The translations under genes were made by a program, and so were the position numbers. Shown here one piece after another: positions 1,932 through 20,695 of a DNA stretch of 21,309 nucleotides. The notes below the pieces were generated by a model. The model was not told the DNA's origin. It was given only the letters and a program-made list of their open reading frames with translations, and did no database searches. The stretch comes from a virus, in IMG/VR virus record IMGVR_UViG_3300033146_000755, positions 1 through 21,309 of that record. One strand, given 5' to 3'. Numbering within the stretch: position 1 is the first letter of the stretch; every line of letters starts with the position of its first letter.

Positions 1932-3530
1932 TTATGGTGTTGTTACGAATGCTTTAATATCATTCATTGTTACTTTTTTTACATTACCAGACGAATCACT
2001 TAATAATAATGTATCAAATTCTTCTACTGTAAATCCAGTTTTAGCTGAAGATATAGAATTAGATTTAAATACTGTTATTGAACCTGTGGTAGTATCTGGA
2101 GATGCTAATATCGGACTAAAATCAGAAACCATTGATAAAGTTAAGCTTAAATCAGGTGGTGTAATAGCCGTTAAAACTACTAATTTATCAGACGTATCAA
2201 TTCCTGGGACTTTACTATTTCCTGTTAGTCCTGTTATTATAACATTTATACCAGTACTATCTTTTGGTTTTGTTGTTGATGTTATCCTTAATCCTTCATA
2301 AGTAAAGGCTGTTCCATGCGAAGCTATTGAACAATTATCTAAAGTAAATGTTGCTGTTGTGTGTTCTATTGGTAAATCTAATTCTATTACATTATTACCG
2401 GCTAAACCGCCAATAATATCATTAAATTTACAATTATTAAATACAACTTTAGCTCCTAAAGAAGGAACTGTTAATCCAAATATATTACGTGTCATAAGTG
2501 TTCCAAAATTTTGACTAGCATTTCCGTTTCCTGTTGTAAATGTTATATTTTGAAATGTAGCTCCAGTCGTTAAATTTATTCTATTAATTTCTGGTGGATC
2601 AATAGCGTTAGTTACTGTATCTTTATCTGCTTCTGAATGGAAATATAAAAATCCATTTAATCCAATAAATGTTATTCCATCTAAATCCCAAGATACTTCT
2701 GTTTCTACATATACTTGTCCAGATATATATATAACTCCACCTAAATAATTAGTATGAATATTTGCTACAGCGTCTACTACTTGGGTCCAATCTGTACAAA
2801 AGAATATACCTAATTCATCTTCTTTATGTATAGTAATTAATGTTTCATCTGGATTTCCTGATAATGCTGCTTCTATTACAATGCCAGTACCTCCCTGAAA
2901 TGCAGCTGTATTTGTATCTGGCATAAGAACATCATTTACTTTTATTGGTCTCCATGTATCGCCTGCTCCACTATCTCCAGGTTCCCCTTTAGGGCCTCTT
3001 AATTGACCTATATTATTCCAGTGAGTTGGACCGGTTCCTTGTCCATCAGAAATAAAACCATCTCCAATTTCACATTCTCCAGTTACGGCATCAGTAGTTA
3101 TATAAATATCTCCTACATCAGCTCCGGCCACATTCATAATATCAACGTACGTAGCTGATCCTTCTATAAATATGCTATCTCCTTGTGGTCCTGTTGGGCC
3201 CGGATCTCCAGCTGGCCCTTGCACTCCATCTTTTCCTGGCATTCCGGCTGGACCTTGTTCTCCTTTTGGACCCTCTGGACCTTGTTGTCCAGGTTGTCCT
3301 GTAGCTCCATCTTGTCCGGCTGGTCCCTCTGGGCCTTGTGGTCCTTGTAAGCCTATTTCTCCTTTTGGTCCTTCTGGGCCTTGAGCTCCATCAGCTCCAT
3401 CTACACCATCTTGTCCTGGAGGACCTGGAGGGCCTTCTGGGCCTACTGCAAAATCTGGAAATGGGACTAATTCTTCATATCCTCTGTTTCCGATAGGGTG
3501 GCTTATATTTTTATATAAATTTGTTTCCAT
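1932..3530 (-). CDS. Collagen-like fibre protein with probable beta-helix domain
   Basis: This protein of 532 residues has three visible parts. Residues 1-29 form a short N-terminal leader. Residues 30-117 form an unbroken collagen-like run of 29 Gly-X-Y triplets, many of them GPE, GPK, GPQ or GPA, with a second short run ([10 protein letters not shown]) at 179-188. Residues 240-480 have the repeating pattern of a right-handed beta-helix or pectate-lyase-like fold ([46 protein letters not shown]). The C-terminus carries [13 protein letters not shown], resembling trimer or linker segments of phage fibres. Collagen-like triplets are known in phage tail fibres and make trimeric rods. The start codon overlaps the stop of the upstream gene as TAATG. 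A host-surface binding or glycan-degrading role is inference; no catalytic residues were identified. Confidence 0.8.
3180..3443 (-). repeat. Collagen-like Gly-X-Y coding repeat
   Basis: This stretch encodes 29 consecutive Gly-X-Y triplets plus a final Gly, residues 30-117 of the 532-residue fibre protein. On the plus strand it appears as recurring ggncc/tggncc blocks, clearly richer in G and C than the surrounding AT-rich coding sequence. The near-repeated blocks (GPEGPKGE occurs twice; GPAG occurs three times) suggest expansion by unequal recombination or slippage, so repeat number may vary between related phages. Confidence 0.9.
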
Positions 3531-8226: not shown

Positions 8227-9705
8227 TTATGCCAAAATCGCAGGTTTGATTCTCATAGTTCTCATTGGGTTAGTAATCATGACACCTCCAATATACATTC
8301 TATGAACTTCATAACCGTCTACAGAACTAGCTGTTTGACCAGGAGAAGATAGTTTGTTATATGGAGAATAAGGATCACGCATACCTGGGATATACTTATA
8401 GATATCCTCATCACCTTTTAATGCTACTTTTTGAATATTTGGTTTACCATCGGCTGTACCAAAATCAAGTAGATCATACTCACGAGAACTTGCTAGTCCA
8501 CCTTCTGGATGATAAATCTTATTACGAATAGGACTATCCTTCATAGGATCGTGCATCAATTCAAAGCTGATACCATTAACGGTACGATACTCTAGGAATT
8601 GACCTCTATAAGACATCTTGTTTCCAGAGATGCTAATACGATCTTGAGAGAAGTTTGGAGTCCAATGTGAAGCTTTTTCTTCTACTGCTTTGTGGAATTG
8701 GAACATGCCATATTCACCAGTAGATAATACAAAGCGTCTTGAATCTTCAGGTAGTTTACCTACAGATAAACCAATTGCAATTTCTGTTAGCCAATCAATA
8801 TCAAATGTATTATAATAGAATAAATTAGATGGGGCCATTTGTTCATATAAACCATGACCTGCTCTGATTTCATAACCAGATTCTCCAGTATTACCATAGC
8901 TACCATCAGCCATTTTGTTACTATTACTATACATTATTAATCTTGCGCGTTCTCTACGGAATTGTACTAAGAAGTCCCAATCGAGTTTCTTCAACCAACG
9001 AGTTTGAACTTTACCTTCGCTATCAACAAATGAGAAAGCTAGTGGTTTATTTTCACCTTTACGGATCATATTACCAGGAACTTTGTATTGTTTACGAATC
9101 ATACTTAATGTGTTTTCCATAGCAAATGGAGAAGTATGAGATACTTCACCACCTCTTTTAGATAGAGTCTGCTCAACTAGTGAGTATTCTTTACTCCATC
9201 TTGTTCCAGATTTTAATTCATCTGGATGAACTGATAGATGATCATTACCTGTAACTAATCGTACTTTGAATGCCCAACTATTGCCTAAGCGAATAGGGTC
9301 TGATTCAATACGTAGTTTATAATCATCTGGTTTTTCTCCTACAATAACATCTGTTGCGAAGAAAAGTCTTTCCTTAAATACTAACCAGAATGTACTTCTA
9401 GCAATACCAGGCTTAGAAGGCTTAGAACTGAACGTCTCATCTGCCCAATAGTCTTCTAATGGAATATTTTTTTCATCTGCCCCCTGTAACATCCACCTAA
9501 ATGGAACATCATCTTGGATGTATTTTGTTGGAAATTTATCTAAGAAAGAAACGATATCGTCTCCACCTAGATTTACTTTGTAAATTTGCTCAATAACACT
9601 GTTTATCAACTCAGGTTCTTGGCCAAATAATGCACCCAAATGGTTTTCCGTGGTTAATCCACCCCATTCTTTGGGTTCATATTTTTGTAACGGACTAATT
9701 AACAT
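8227..9705 (-). CDS. Major capsid protein, crAss-like (HK97 fold expected)
   Basis: The protein has 492 residues, a usual length for crAss-like major capsid proteins. It opens with MLISPLQKYEPKEWGGLTTE and has features I associate with that family: IARSTFWLVFKERLFFATDV near 100-119, and the aromatic and glycine-rich stretch AGHGLYEQMAPSNLFYYNTF near 283-302. An HK97-type shell fold is expected from the family but cannot be read directly. The gene is preceded by the acidic scaffold-like gene (22-base gap) and followed by a strong terminator. That layout fits a high-expression scaffold-capsid unit. Codon use is regular, and there is no Shine-Dalgarno, only an AT-rich leader (AAACAGAAAAATT). Confidence 0.85.
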   Translation of the reverse strand: MLISPLQKYEPKEWGGLTTENHLGALFGQEPELINSVIEQIYKVNLGGDDIVSFLDKFPTKYIQDDVPFRWMLQGADEKNIPLEDYWADETFSSKPSKPGIARSTFWLVFKERLFFATDVIVGEKPDDYKLRIESDPIRLGNSWAFKVRLVTGNDHLSVHPDELKSGTRWSKEYSLVEQTLSKRGGEVSHTSPFAMENTLSMIRKQYKVPGNMIRKGENKPLAFSFVDSEGKVQTRWLKKLDWDFLVQFRRERARLIMYSNSNKMADGSYGNTGESGYEIRAGHGLYEQMAPSNLFYYNTFDIDWLTEIAIGLSVGKLPEDSRRFVLSTGEYGMFQFHKAVEEKASHWTPNFSQDRISISGNKMSYRGQFLEYRTVNGISFELMHDPMKDSPIRNKIYHPEGGLASSREYDLLDFGTADGKPNIQKVALKGDEDIYKYIPGMRDPYSPYNKLSSPGQTASSVDGYEVHRMYIGGVMITNPMRTMRIKPAILA

Positions 9706-11052: not shown

Positions 11053-11985
11053 TTAATATTTATCCATTGTTGATACCATAGCTTGGCTTCCATAATTCAG
11101 TACAACACCACATGCTACAGTTGGCCTTTTAGGTTGATACTTGGCATATACAAAAGCGTATGCGTCCTCGTCAATTCCACATCCTACATTCATTCCAAAA
11201 ATAATATCTTTACGTGAAGCAAGGTATCTTACTCCAGCAAAGCTATGTGAGTGTCCAATTACTACACTCTGTCTTGCCTCTTTAGCTCTATTAGTTGCTC
11301 CCATATCTCCCGAGCTCCCAATACCATGTTCATAAATTACATCATCAATTACCCACCTTTCAGCGAACCTCCATCCAGGAGGAGACTCAAGGACTTCGCT
11401 ATGCTCTTTAATCCAACCTTGTGGCATACCAGCACGAAAAGCCTTGCGATAAGAAAGATTATCATGATTACCAAGACATACAAATACATTAGGAAAACTC
11501 TCATACCAATCTTTTAATTTAGTTTTAGCAAGTTCTAATTCCCTGCCACCTCCGAATCCATCAGGATCGGTGTCATGGAAGCTCATAGCGTGATTATCTA
11601 TAACATCACCTATATGAACTACTGTTTTACAATTAAACTGTTTATACACCGCCTTACAGTGTTCTAAATAACCGTCTTGATCAAAAGGAAAGTGAGTGTC
11701 CCCAATTATGAGGACGTTTCCATTTTTACTTTCTATTACGTTTTGACCTTTTAAATAACCAACTTCAGGATTATAATTTCTTTTAAGTTTAGGTTTTGAT
11801 ATTTCATATTCAGATATTTTATCTTTATGATCTTTCCAATAAAATCCTACTGCTCTACGTTTATCTTTTACTGCTTTACGAATTGTAGATTCATCTACTC
11901 CAAGCGTTTTGGCAGCTTTTGTCATTGACTTATGACTTGTTATGTATCTCCCAGTCAATGTATATTGATATATCTTCTTGCTCAT
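11053..11985 (-). CDS. NUMOD1-like DNA-binding domain fused to metallophosphoesterase
   Basis: The protein has 310 residues. Residues 5-50 (YQYTLTGRYITSH, then SMTKAAKTLGVDESTIRKAV, then GFYWK) match the NUMOD1 pattern, a small helix-turn-helix normally found at the ends of homing endonucleases. Residues 90-290 carry the calcineurin-like phosphoesterase motifs in order: GDTHFP (95-100), GDVIDNH (126-132), GNHDN (172-176), a lone His at 220 (YEHG) and GHSHSFAG (244-251). All metal ligands expected of the family are present, so it should be active. Substrate is unknown; a nuclease or phosphodiesterase acting on DNA ends, RNA or nucleotides are options. The start overlaps the portal stop as TAATG. 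Placement between portal and scaffold in a structural operon is notable. Confidence 0.85.
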   Translation of the reverse strand: MSKKIYQYTLTGRYITSHKSMTKAAKTLGVDESTIRKAVKDKRRAVGFYWKDHKDKISEYEISKPKLKRNYNPEVGYLKGQNVIESKNGNVLIIGDTHFPFDQDGYLEHCKAVYKQFNCKTVVHIGDVIDNHAMSFHDTDPDGFGGGRELELAKTKLKDWYESFPNVFVCLGNHDNLSYRKAFRAGMPQGWIKEHSEVLESPPGWRFAERWVIDDVIYEHGIGSSGDMGATNRAKEARQSVVIGHSHSFAGVRYLASRKDIIFGMNVGCGIDEDAYAFVYAKYQPKRPTVACGVVLNYGSQAMVSTMDKY

Positions 11986-14383: not shown

Positions 14384-17300
14384 TTATTGTTTATATAGTT
14401 TATCAAAAAATGCCTTGTGTTTTCCTTTCTTCTTCTTCTTTGACGATTGAATTGACACTATGACATCTTCTCTATATATCATTGTCATTCCTAAAGCTGA
14501 TACCCTATCAGCATTAATATCTTTAGTCCACGCTGATAATTCTTTTAATAAAGCAACGCTTCTTATTGTATTTAAATTTGTTACATTCTCTTCTCTATTA
14601 AATGCTTGCCTTTCTATCCAAGCCAATATTAAATCTCTGCCATATCTGTTTACAGCCTCGTTAGCTGTCGTTCCATAGGCCTTATTACCTTGTTTTCCTG
14701 TATGTAATAATCTAGCATCCCTCAATATTTGAGGAGTCTCTGCTAGTAAATGTAAACTATTTTTATTTTTAAAGTGCCCAAATATACCCTTCTTTTGAGC
14801 TTCATAATTAGTTTTTGCATTATAAAATATAAGCATTCTTCTTACTTGCTCATAATATTCTTCAACTCTTCTTGTACGAGCTGTATATTCTGCTACTATT
14901 CTATCTGTAAATGTATCAAATACAAAGGTGGATTGTAAAGATAAAGTAATATCATCATTGCCATCATCATCTACAGGGTCAGTGCCCGCTATATATCTAT
15001 TAGCTGGTATTAATCCATGTACATCTTTCTTGGGCATTTCAAATATCTCTATCGCTCCATCCATAGATTCTCCTCTAATCAAAGGGAATCTTCTAATTAC
15101 ATTTAATTTAGAATTAGCAAATACAGGCTTTCCATGTTTATCTATTAAGAAATGCGCTTTCCATGAAGCCGCTAATAGTTTATCATCTGATTCTAGACTT
15201 CCTAATCTATGTTTTAAATCCTCTACTGGAAAGAAATTACCATCAGCAGATAAGAACATCTCAGACGGTTTAATAGGATAGTTCATCATTTCTAATTGGA
15301 GAGCCTTTACGTCAGTATTCTTAGTAAGCGCCTTCCTTCTCTTTAATAGAAATGCTAATGCCTTTTCTTCATCTGTATTACCATTCTCATCTTTAAATTG
15401 ATTCAATGCGTAATAAGCTGGAATAAAGAATCCAATTTCACCAGTGCCTTCCCATTCGTCATTGAAAGCCATCATTTGATATCCTCTAGGATTTCTAAAT
15501 ATTAATTCAGATTCAACTACTTTTTCAATATTACCACCAGTATTGTGGGTTATCACATTGTTGGCCAAATAAGAATGAGATCCACCAGCAGTTAGATTAT
15601 AAACATATTGCTCGCCTATATCCTCTATAGATTTTATCTTTTTGAAAGAAATATCATAAACATCCGTAGCTCCTTCAAAAAAGTTTCCGTCTTCTCCAGC
15701 TATATATCTTAATGGTAATTTTGATCTTCCATTTTTATTTATTGATTGTGCATAAATTCTTATTAATTTGTTTTGCTTTCTTTTTGTTAAAAATTTAATA
15801 TTGTCAGCAAATTTTAATACGCTTTCAAATTGATTAACATACAAAACATATTTAAACTCAGAACCTTTTTCGTACCCTCCAGATCTTCTTTCTTTATATA
15901 TATTTGATTCAATGCCAAATTTAATTAATCTATATTTTATTCCATATAGCAAATGCTTCAAATTTGATGTTAATGTGATTTGAACTTTTCCATTTTGGCC
16001 AAATTTAACACTACCATCGGCATCAAAATATCCACCAATAAATTCACTTAATGATTCTTTATCGTAATCATCGATATCAATTGGTAACTGCTTTTTGTAT
16101 TTCGTTTGCCCCTTTATTCCTGCTTCTCTTAAAATATCATTTATCCCGCTAATATTAACAGATTTATATAAATATCCTTTTTTCGTAACAAATTCTTTCT
16201 TTGTTTTGCATGAATAATTGTTTTCCATATATTCTATAGTTTCATCACTATCGAGGCTCAATTCAGCTGTACTCCCTCCGTAATATCCATCACCAACTAA
16301 TAATCCTAATAATCTTGCATGTTTATTTTTCTTTTTACCAAATATTGGAATTTCAGAAATAATACCAATTTGATCCTTATCAGTTATATTCTTAGCTTCC
16401 CTGAATGTACAAACCCTATATTTAACTTTATCTATATTCTTATCAAAGTGATGTTTTGATATCAATATTGGATGATCATCAGAACATTCCAATTTATCAC
16501 CTCCCTCAAAATTAATTCTATAGCATTTTTTCTTCTTTGGCTCAGTAAACTTTTCTATATTTTGTTGCAAAGCTCCATCAGAATGATAACCAACTATTCC
16601 GTCTTCCTTTTGTAAATCTTCTATATTCTTTAAATGCCCATCATTTGTCCATACTTTTGTACCAGCGCATACGCATCCTATATAGATTGCACTTCCGAAT
16701 TTAACAATACCCTCAATCATTGTTGCTGTATTAGAACCGTGCACTGTAAGCACATTAGGAAGCAATCCAACCTCCTCTATCACCATAGTGCCATAACGTC
16801 CACCAGCGGCCGCTTCTGGGTTCTCAGTGGTATATACACCATGTCTAATTGACGACCTAGTACCTTTCTTAACCCATCTACCTGTTTCTAATTTCTCCTC
16901 GTACTCGTATCGCCAAGGATTCTTCATATTATTAGGATTAAGATTACCAGCCATAACCCTATAGAAAGGACTAGGAACTTCTTCTGGTGTATTTTTAGCC
17001 CATACGCCAGGTAAGTTCTCCATATTGAATTCAACTTTATCTGCCAAATCTGATGATTTAGCTGCTATTCCAGCTCCAAGGAAGACTGATGCTTGAGGCA
17101 TATTATGTAAATAATCATCATTATAATACTTTGCCCCATCAAATAATACATCATGTAATAACATTCCACCAGCAGTACTATATGATTTACCTAATCCCCT
17201 TGAACCCATATTAAATAAGTTAAGGGCTTCATTCATATATAAAGGTAATCCCAACGGTTTGTTACGTAATCTACGTAAATATGTTCTCGTTGGTTCATAC

Positions 17301-17572
17301 TGCTTTAGCTCCCCATTCTTCTTATATACGCTAGCATGTAATATTATATCAGGCTCTCCGTCTAAATGTTCTTTAAGAGCCTTTACACAAGATATTTCAT
17401 CATCATCCTCGAAACCAGAAAATCCTTTTGCTTCTATCCAATTATAGAAGATCTCCCACTCTAAATCTCTTAAATGTGGCCTAACAGGCTTTCTTGCTGC
17501 TGTTAATGCCGTATTTCCATCTGTATGTAATATACTTCCAAAATTAATATAAAAAAACAAATGAGGGGGCAT
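14384..17572 (-). CDS. terL: Terminase large subunit (TerL) containing an intein
   Basis: The frame from 17572 encodes 1062 residues: 684 of terminase plus an intein at residues 300-677. The ATPase has a Walker A GSRGLGKS (123-130) and a Walker B TMVIEE (262-267), with acidic residues 266-267. The intein splits the coupling motif IG/TGG, restored on splicing as YIGTGGN. The RNase H-like nuclease has likely acidic residues Asp865 (AGTDPVDDD), Glu924 (NYEAQ) and Asp980 (GRDLILAW). The enzyme packages DNA into the capsid and cuts it. The in-frame start is probably not the native one. The 30 codons upstream of this ATG are open and read like protein (for example LSEELHDIKYDGDKWRW). They contain no start codon, and a start in another frame lies at 17694. 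A GGAG precedes ATG 17572 and could allow internal initiation. Confidence 0.92.
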   Translation of the reverse strand: MPPHLFFYINFGSILHTDGNTALTAARKPVRPHLRDLEWEIFYNWIEAKGFSGFEDDDEISCVKALKEHLDGEPDIILHASVYKKNGELKQYEPTRTYLRRLRNKPLGLPLYMNEALNLFNMGSRGLGKSYSTAGGMLLHDVLFDGAKYYNDDYLHNMPQASVFLGAGIAAKSSDLADKVEFNMENLPGVWAKNTPEEVPSPFYRVMAGNLNPNNMKNPWRYEYEEKLETGRWVKKGTRSSIRHGVYTTENPEAAAGGRYGTMVIEEVGLLPNVLTVHGSNTATMIEGIVKFGSAIYIGCVCAGTKVWTNDGHLKNIEDLQKEDGIVGYHSDGALQQNIEKFTEPKKKKCYRINFEGGDKLECSDDHPILISKHHFDKNIDKVKYRVCTFREAKNITDKDQIGIISEIPIFGKKKNKHARLLGLLVGDGYYGGSTAELSLDSDETIEYMENNYSCKTKKEFVTKKGYLYKSVNISGINDILREAGIKGQTKYKKQLPIDIDDYDKESLSEFIGGYFDADGSVKFGQNGKVQITLTSNLKHLLYGIKYRLIKFGIESNIYKERRSGGYEKGSEFKYVLYVNQFESVLKFADNIKFLTKRKQNKLIRIYAQSINKNGRSKLPLRYIAGEDGNFFEGATDVYDISFKKIKSIEDIGEQYVYNLTAGGSHSYLANNVITHNTGGNIEKVVESELIFRNPRGYQMMAFNDEWEGTGEIGFFIPAYYALNQFKDENGNTDEEKALAFLLKRRKALTKNTDVKALQLEMMNYPIKPSEMFLSADGNFFPVEDLKHRLGSLESDDKLLAASWKAHFLIDKHGKPVFANSKLNVIRRFPLIRGESMDGAIEIFEMPKKDVHGLIPANRYIAGTDPVDDDGNDDITLSLQSTFVFDTFTDRIVAEYTARTRRVEEYYEQVRRMLIFYNAKTNYEAQKKGIFGHFKNKNSLHLLAETPQILRDARLLHTGKQGNKAYGTTANEAVNRYGRDLILAWIERQAFNREENVTNLNTIRSVALLKELSAWTKDINADRVSALGMTMIYREDVIVSIQSSKKKKKGKHKAFFDKLYKQ
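15542..16675 (-). mobile_element. Intein with LAGLIDADG (DOD) homing endonuclease, inside terL
   Basis: This 378-residue intein corresponds to TerL residues 300-677. It starts with CVCAGTKVWTNDGHLKNIEDL-type block A, first residue Cys300. Block B is LECSDDHPIL with His367. Block F/G is YVYNLTAGGSHSYLA followed by NNVITHN, ending His676-Asn677, and the next residue Thr678 is the C-extein nucleophile. Two LAGLIDADG motifs are visible: LLGLLVGDGY (421-430, catalytic Asp428) and FIGGYFDADG (511-520, catalytic Asp519). All splicing and endonuclease residues I can check are intact, so it should splice and may home. Boundaries were verified at codon level: TGC at 16673-16675 and AAT at 15542-15544. 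Confidence 0.95.
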
Positions 17573-20242: not shown

Positions 20243-20695
20243 TTAAAAACTTAGGACTAAATCGTCACCAACCTTCTTCTTCTCTTTTTTAAAGTACTTC
20301 TTCACTCTTTCCTTACGTTCTTTCTTGTCGGACAAAGGCTTTAATCCTAAGCTCATTCTAACGCCATTCACGCTCATTTTAAGCACCTCTCTGTTCTTAT
20401 AATGTACAACGGATATTCCTTTACTCTCTAGCCATATTTTGCGTTGAGCATCTCTCATTAAGCCTTCTCCGATATAATGTTGATGACCGTCTAACTCTAT
20501 TACCACGCCTAAAGTTGGTAAATAGAAATCAGCTATCATAAAATACGTATTTGAAATGAATGCTTTTTGAAAAATGAATGGGATACCAGACTCTACTAAT
20601 AATCGTAGAAATATCTTCTCGTGTATCGTAGCGTCCTTTCTCAATTGGCGTATACGCTCTTTAGCTATTCTATGTCTTTCTTCTAATTTATTCAT
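20243..20695 (-). CDS. Free-standing Vsr/DUF559-type endonuclease
   Basis: The protein has 150 residues with the DUF559/Vsr-like nuclease pattern. A helix carries Glu26 (ATIHEKIF), followed by Asp56 in MIADFYLP, then the core VIELDGHQH (Glu67, Asp69, His71, His73) and an RDAQRKIWLESKG helix with Asp82. This arrangement is shared with EDxHD-type homing endonucleases and with Vsr. The C-terminus (KKERKERVKKYFKKEKKK) is strongly basic and probably binds DNA. Family members are frequent as selfish, free-standing genes in phage genomes; others act in repair. It sits alone between a structured non-coding region and a promoter, with a separate 81-base gap downstream, which fits a mobile insert. A role in host DNA breakdown is an alternative. 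Confidence 0.82.
   Translation of the reverse strand: MNKLEERHRIAKERIRQLRKDATIHEKIFLRLLVESGIPFIFQKAFISNTYFMIADFYLPTLGVVIELDGHQHYIGEGLMRDAQRKIWLESKGISVVHYKNREVLKMSVNGVRMSLGLKPLSDKKERKERVKKYFKKEKKKVGDDLVLSF

Follow-up and report, generated by a model that had tools for sequence, protein, structure and literature searches.

The large terminase subunit, TerL, is the usual marker gene in the classification of crAss-like phages. For the Delta crAss-like group, the part of the survey by Yutin et al. (2021, PMC7886860) that treats these terminases describes TerL as typically containing an intein, and in mycobacteriophage Chandler the TerL6-f intein lies in the terminase C-motif and splices in a reporter (Kelley et al. 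2016, PMC5050341). In light of these two precedents, the intein that we describe here, encoded in the terL gene of a 21,309-base virus fragment (hereafter the window, meaning the whole stretch analyzed), is of an already known kind. It shares with Chandler TerL6-f its place in a terminase C-motif, a likeness drawn from the published description rather than from sequence, and differs from it in that the Chandler host protein is an actinophage terminase_6. The TerL of cr53_1 (Blohavirus, Delta crAss-like) likewise has an in-frame intein, which belongs to the sequence family of the window intein (34% identical), although its insertion lies six residues further on (GTGGDEG/S, the slash marking the insertion point) and in another TerL lineage. 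Dulem virus 41 and 42 (GenBank PP511520, PP511876) match the window in the register of insertion (G/TGG), in the CVCAGTK start of the intein and at 38-41% identity, but they belong to a different TerL lineage, and TAG is an amino acid codon in Dulem virus 42; their records annotate a terminase or a LAGLIDADG-like domain protein only. As these two viruses and many IMG/VR contigs attest, the insertion site of the window intein is in use among crAss-like phages.

The crAss-like (Crassvirales) identity of the window is indicated by a Pfam Crass_capsid match (3e-122) and by PHROG families 6681, 6547 and 11589, those of TerL, portal and major head protein, and terL adjoins the crAss portal and capsid genes. 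The terL frame has no internal stops across its 1062 residues, and the protein aligns by tblastn, on both flanks of the insert, with the TerLs of Cellulophaga phage phi14:2 and of eleven related contigs (L001-L011). The gene and its host segments are laid out as follows.

14384..17572, minus strand: terL, large terminase precursor of 1062 residues including the intein (open reading frame; PHROG 6681, 3.8e-89)
16676..17572, minus strand: N-extein, residues 1-299 (tblastn to intein-free TerLs stops at 299/300)
17183..17206, minus strand: Walker A, GSRGLGKS, residues 123-130 (sequence reading)
16772..16789, minus strand: Walker B, TMVIEE, residues 262-267 (sequence reading)
14387..15541, minus strand: C-extein, residues 678-1062, rest of the ATPase and nuclease domains (tblastn to intein-free TerLs starts at 678)
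15539..15541, minus strand: the +1 residue Thr678, which opens the TGG coupling (C) motif (DNA reading; Thr also at +1 in relatives of the same register)

The insertion is in phase 0 (GGA^ACT), between Gly299 and Thr678 and downstream of Walker B, with Cys300 starting at nucleotide 16675 and Asn677 ending at 15542 on the minus strand. A preliminary description made from the letters alone had placed an intein in a crAss-like TerL at exactly these coordinates, and Pfam, NCBIfam, family conservation and the AlphaFold2 model all concur; the residues to which it assigned splicing and DNA cleavage are likewise at the numbers it gave (below).

15542..16675, minus strand: intein of 378 residues, C1 to N378, residues 300-677 of the precursor (Pfam PF14890 and PF14528; TIGR01445; AlphaFold2 model and PDB matches)
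16673..16675, minus strand: the C1 nucleophile, Cys300 (Cys in 70/70 family inteins)
16472..16474, minus strand: block B histidine, His367, intein H68 (His in 70/70)
15731..16339, minus strand: LAGLIDADG homing endonuclease domain, approximately residues 412-614 (VIA alignment; PF14528 at 509-592)
16289..16291, minus strand: catalytic Asp428, intein D129, in LLVGDG (Asp in 69/69 filled rows)
16016..16018, minus strand: catalytic Asp519, intein D220, in GGYFDADG (Asp in 69/70)
15542..15547, minus strand: the C-terminal His676-Asn677 (H377 in 63/70, N378 in 66/70)

The Pfam matches are to Intein_splicing (PF14890, 5e-14) and LAGLIDADG_3 (PF14528, 1.5e-14), and that of NCBIfam TIGR01445 (intein_Nterm) starts exactly at residue 300; agreement of this kind is far from what chance would give. 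The sequence and fold features of class 1 inteins are present, namely Cys1, the block B histidine, the His-Asn end followed by Thr, a HINT fold and homologs that are empty at the same site. Block B reads S364-D-D-H367, that is SxxH instead of TxxH, and in block F an asparagine (YNL) replaces the usual aspartate, a substitution common to 67/70 relatives. The two LAGLIDADG helices each bear a catalytic acid, as in two-motif monomeric homing endonucleases. We regard the element as almost certainly a class 1 LAGLIDADG intein in the TerL C-motif, predicted from its sequence to excise itself and to home into intein-free terL genes.

An AlphaFold2 model of the intein, built with 49 aligned family members (pLDDT 89.8, pTM 0.88), has as its best PDB matches complete intein-homing endonucleases, with VIA-align Z-scores of 24-29 over approximately 290-330 residues: TliVMA (7qsu; Z 28.7, rmsd 3.6, 317 aligned), PI-PfuI (1dq3; Z 26.9, rmsd 4.0, 333 aligned) and PI-SceI (1vde; Z 25.8 within a range of 25-26, rmsd 3.6, 324 aligned). 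These share with the window intein the two-domain fold of a HINT splicing domain and a LAGLIDADG nuclease, but reside in other host genes and are only ~14-21% identical to it. Taken separately, the two halves align with the Mtu RecA intein (splicing; Z 21.2, rmsd 1.6 Å, 136 aligned) and with I-Tsp061I (nuclease; Z 16.8, rmsd 3.3, 178 aligned), with model residues 113-315 matching I-Tsp061I and WhiA in the VIA alignment. Two further cysteines, C51 (nt 16523-16525) and C64 (nt 16484-16486; both minus strand), are near-invariant in the family (68/70 and 66/70) and sit on consecutive strands of the model.

We then compared the insertion site with its uninterrupted counterparts. Twelve related contigs (L001-L011 and L121) and phage phi14:2 (L017) are intein-free at the same position of TerL, and the tblastn flanks of the intein end within one residue of the junction in these relatives. 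The window junction, FGSAIYIG/TGGNIEKVV, is matched by FGSSIYLG-TGGNIEKIL in L001, FGSSIYIG-TGGNIEKII in phi14:2 and FGSAVYLG-TGGNMEKIV in L121, and the empty-site DNA of L001 reads TTTGGTAGCAGCATATATTTAGGA^ACTGGTGGTAATATTGAG, with the caret at the insertion point. The C-motif is also uninterrupted in the reference crAss-like TerLs of crAss001, cr50_1, cr52_1, cr60_1, cr108_1 and cr126_1. The suggestion in the preliminary description that both same-site inteins and empty alleles be sought in TerL homologs is thus borne out on both sides, by Dulem virus 41/42 and by phi14:2, L001-L011 and L121 respectively; its further proposal, that excision recreates IGTGGN in the coupling motif, accords with the empty junctions, which read GTGG, or GTSG in L007 and L009-L011. 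The window presents a complete intein within the TerL coupling motif, in a phi14:2-related crAss-like lineage that is otherwise intein-free in the TerLs seen.

An assembly chimera or pseudogene joined from two unrelated reads might be suspected from the GC content of the intein (0.29), which is below that of the N-extein (0.37), but the C-extein (0.33) and the whole window (0.32) are near the intein value, and dozens of independent contigs share the site at which the exact phase 0 junction falls, which leaves this explanation a negligible probability.

On the proposed reading, the precursor would excise residues 300-677 after translation by the standard class 1 route: an acyl shift at Cys1, transfer to Thr+1, cyclization of the terminal Asn, aided by the penultimate His, and ligation of the exteins. 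Splicing would restore YIG-TGGN and yield, as computed from extein lengths of 299 and 385 residues, a terminase of 684 residues, in agreement with the product and 378-residue intein lengths given in the preliminary description. In a mixed infection, the intein would cleave an intein-free terL within its conserved core, GGN-ACN-GGN-GGN, and be copied in as the break is repaired. The unspliced TerL motor should be inactive, and, with the coupling motif interrupted, packaging presumably waits for splicing. This dependence, given that the intein breaks a motif needed for ATPase coupling, is what lends some appeal to the idea, discussed for phage inteins (PMC5050341) and raised for this locus in the preliminary description, that redox state, temperature or another cue slows or triggers splicing and so times DNA packaging. 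The CVC start of 50/70 family inteins and the near-invariance of C51 and C64 would suit a redox switch of this type; yet Thr, Ile or Met takes the place of Cys3 of that start in the other 20/70, the N-extein has no cysteine beside the C1 junction, sister phages manage with an uninterrupted TerL, and five published TerL inteins spliced fast in a reporter (PMC5050341). Conditional maturation of TerL is accordingly unsupported here, and we consider it very unlikely.

The window intein in isolation retrieved no relative as a single-sequence query of IMG/VR, nor did we find a close relative of it at the DNA level, and terL as a DNA query returned no matches in the phage collection. Searching with a five-sequence alignment, by contrast with the single query, recovered 172 relatives in IMG/VR, 80 of which were taken for analysis, and one clear relative on a bacterial MAG contig (L099). 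The family is present at about 80 IMG/VR loci, with few exceptions in the TerL C-motif, and the closest relative of the window intein is 44% identical in protein sequence. In the 70 distinct inteins compared, C1, H68 and D218 never vary, D129 and D220 hardly do, and 66 terminate in Asn against four in Gln. Among close pairs of family inteins, which do not include the window copy, dN/dS is 0.04-0.22, with dS saturated in several, pointing to purifying selection. The 82 classed loci fall into three registers spaced three residues apart: alpha (G/TGG), that of the window, with 66 loci and inclusive of TAG, TAA, TSG and TN motif variants; beta (GTGG/T) with 10; and gamma (GTGGxxG/S) with six, cr53_1 among them.

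Several variations on this theme were also observed. The related inteins of L020, L022, L025 and L027 end in Lys-Gln (TKQ/TGG) rather than His-Asn, and their block F His is changed to Asn too, so that their C-terminal cleavage residues have changed in concert. Two or more inteins are apparent in the TerLs of L031, L052, L057, L069, L070, L090 and L091, the extra ones lying upstream near Walker A/B; no match to a second intein was found within the window. In L076, L077 and L079, whose TerLs share ~40% of N-extein and ~30% of C-extein residues with that of the window, a different intein of 352 residues with a CVCEDSLI start occupies the same G/TGG site.

The phylogeny of the inteins is at odds with that of their host proteins. 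Three changes account for the register on the intein tree, where beta forms one group (support 98). On the TerL tree the register needs 11 changes among intein-bearing rows, in a final count in which the truncated or double-intein loci L031, L089, L094 and L095 were not labelled intein-free; an earlier count on the same TerL tree data had given eight changes for beta alone. The window TerL belongs to a 10-row clade (support 99) whose other nine members are intein-free, on a tree in which several rows are long-branched and the intein-free TerLs were drawn chiefly from the neighborhood of the window. The window intein, for its part, groups in a 9-row clade (support 99) with those of L019-L022, L025, L027, L029 and L030, the TerLs of which are scattered over the TerL tree. 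Forcing the nine TerLs of this intein clade to be monophyletic is rejected (p-AU 4e-9), for a group picked after the intein tree was known. Beyond the crAss-like phages, the same alpha register is used in MT835482 (L016), in a terminase that is related to those of Streptomyces phages (39-41%) and has no match by the crAss TerL profile; BS162P1, related to it at 75% over the N-extein, has the C-motif site empty (SATGGT) but an intein elsewhere in TerL.

The incongruence of the two trees and the presence of the family in a non-crAss terminase are best explained if lateral homing has reached the same essential motif many times over. A different possibility is that the window intein is a decaying element, still splicing but with a dead endonuclease, and retained by descent rather than homing, as its sporadic distribution and the lack of a near-identical copy in the collections searched might hint. 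The LAGLIDADG fold is, however, intact throughout, with both catalytic aspartates in place, and the closest TerLs are all empty, which favors gain by the window lineage over long retention; we judge decay unlikely. The window intein is most likely a laterally acquired LAGLIDADG homing intein, and, to go by its intact residues, probably an active one. More tentatively, but as a quite credible possibility, we suggest that the family specializes on the terminase C-motif, in crAss-like phages and in an unrelated terminase, and has moved between the three registers, with the motif serving as a ladder of homing sites: the repeated Gly-Thr/Ser words of this region (GTGGTEGS, in protein and DNA) are such that endonuclease target and splice junction could shift register. 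A limited search of the open-access literature found no description of adjacent registers in the terminase C-motif or of incongruence with the TerL tree. The set of TerL C-motif inteins offers a ready system for studying site choice and site shifts by homing inteins within an essential motif, and inteins are frequent enough in this marker gene that they must be removed before tree building.

Elsewhere in the window, the gene at 11053-11985 (minus strand), which separates the portal gene from the structural gene after it, joins a NUMOD1 DNA-binding module to a calcineurin-like phosphoesterase, an arrangement also apparent in L001 (7508-8052). A similar N-terminal module is paired with an RNase H-like exonuclease in L124 (from 268), and the same exonuclease with another N-terminus lies downstream of the portal in L121; this post-portal slot appears to combine one DNA-binding module with exchangeable enzymes. 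The capsid protein (8227-9705, minus strand) has relatives 75-81% identical (L116-L121, L137), while the best TerL reaches only ~55-61%, suggesting that TerL evolves faster or was exchanged. The window additionally encodes a DUF559 (Vsr-like) nuclease (20243-20695, minus strand; PF04480, 1.4e-13) and a collagen-like protein of Gly-X-Y repeats (1932-3530, minus strand; Pfam Collagen, 8e-15).
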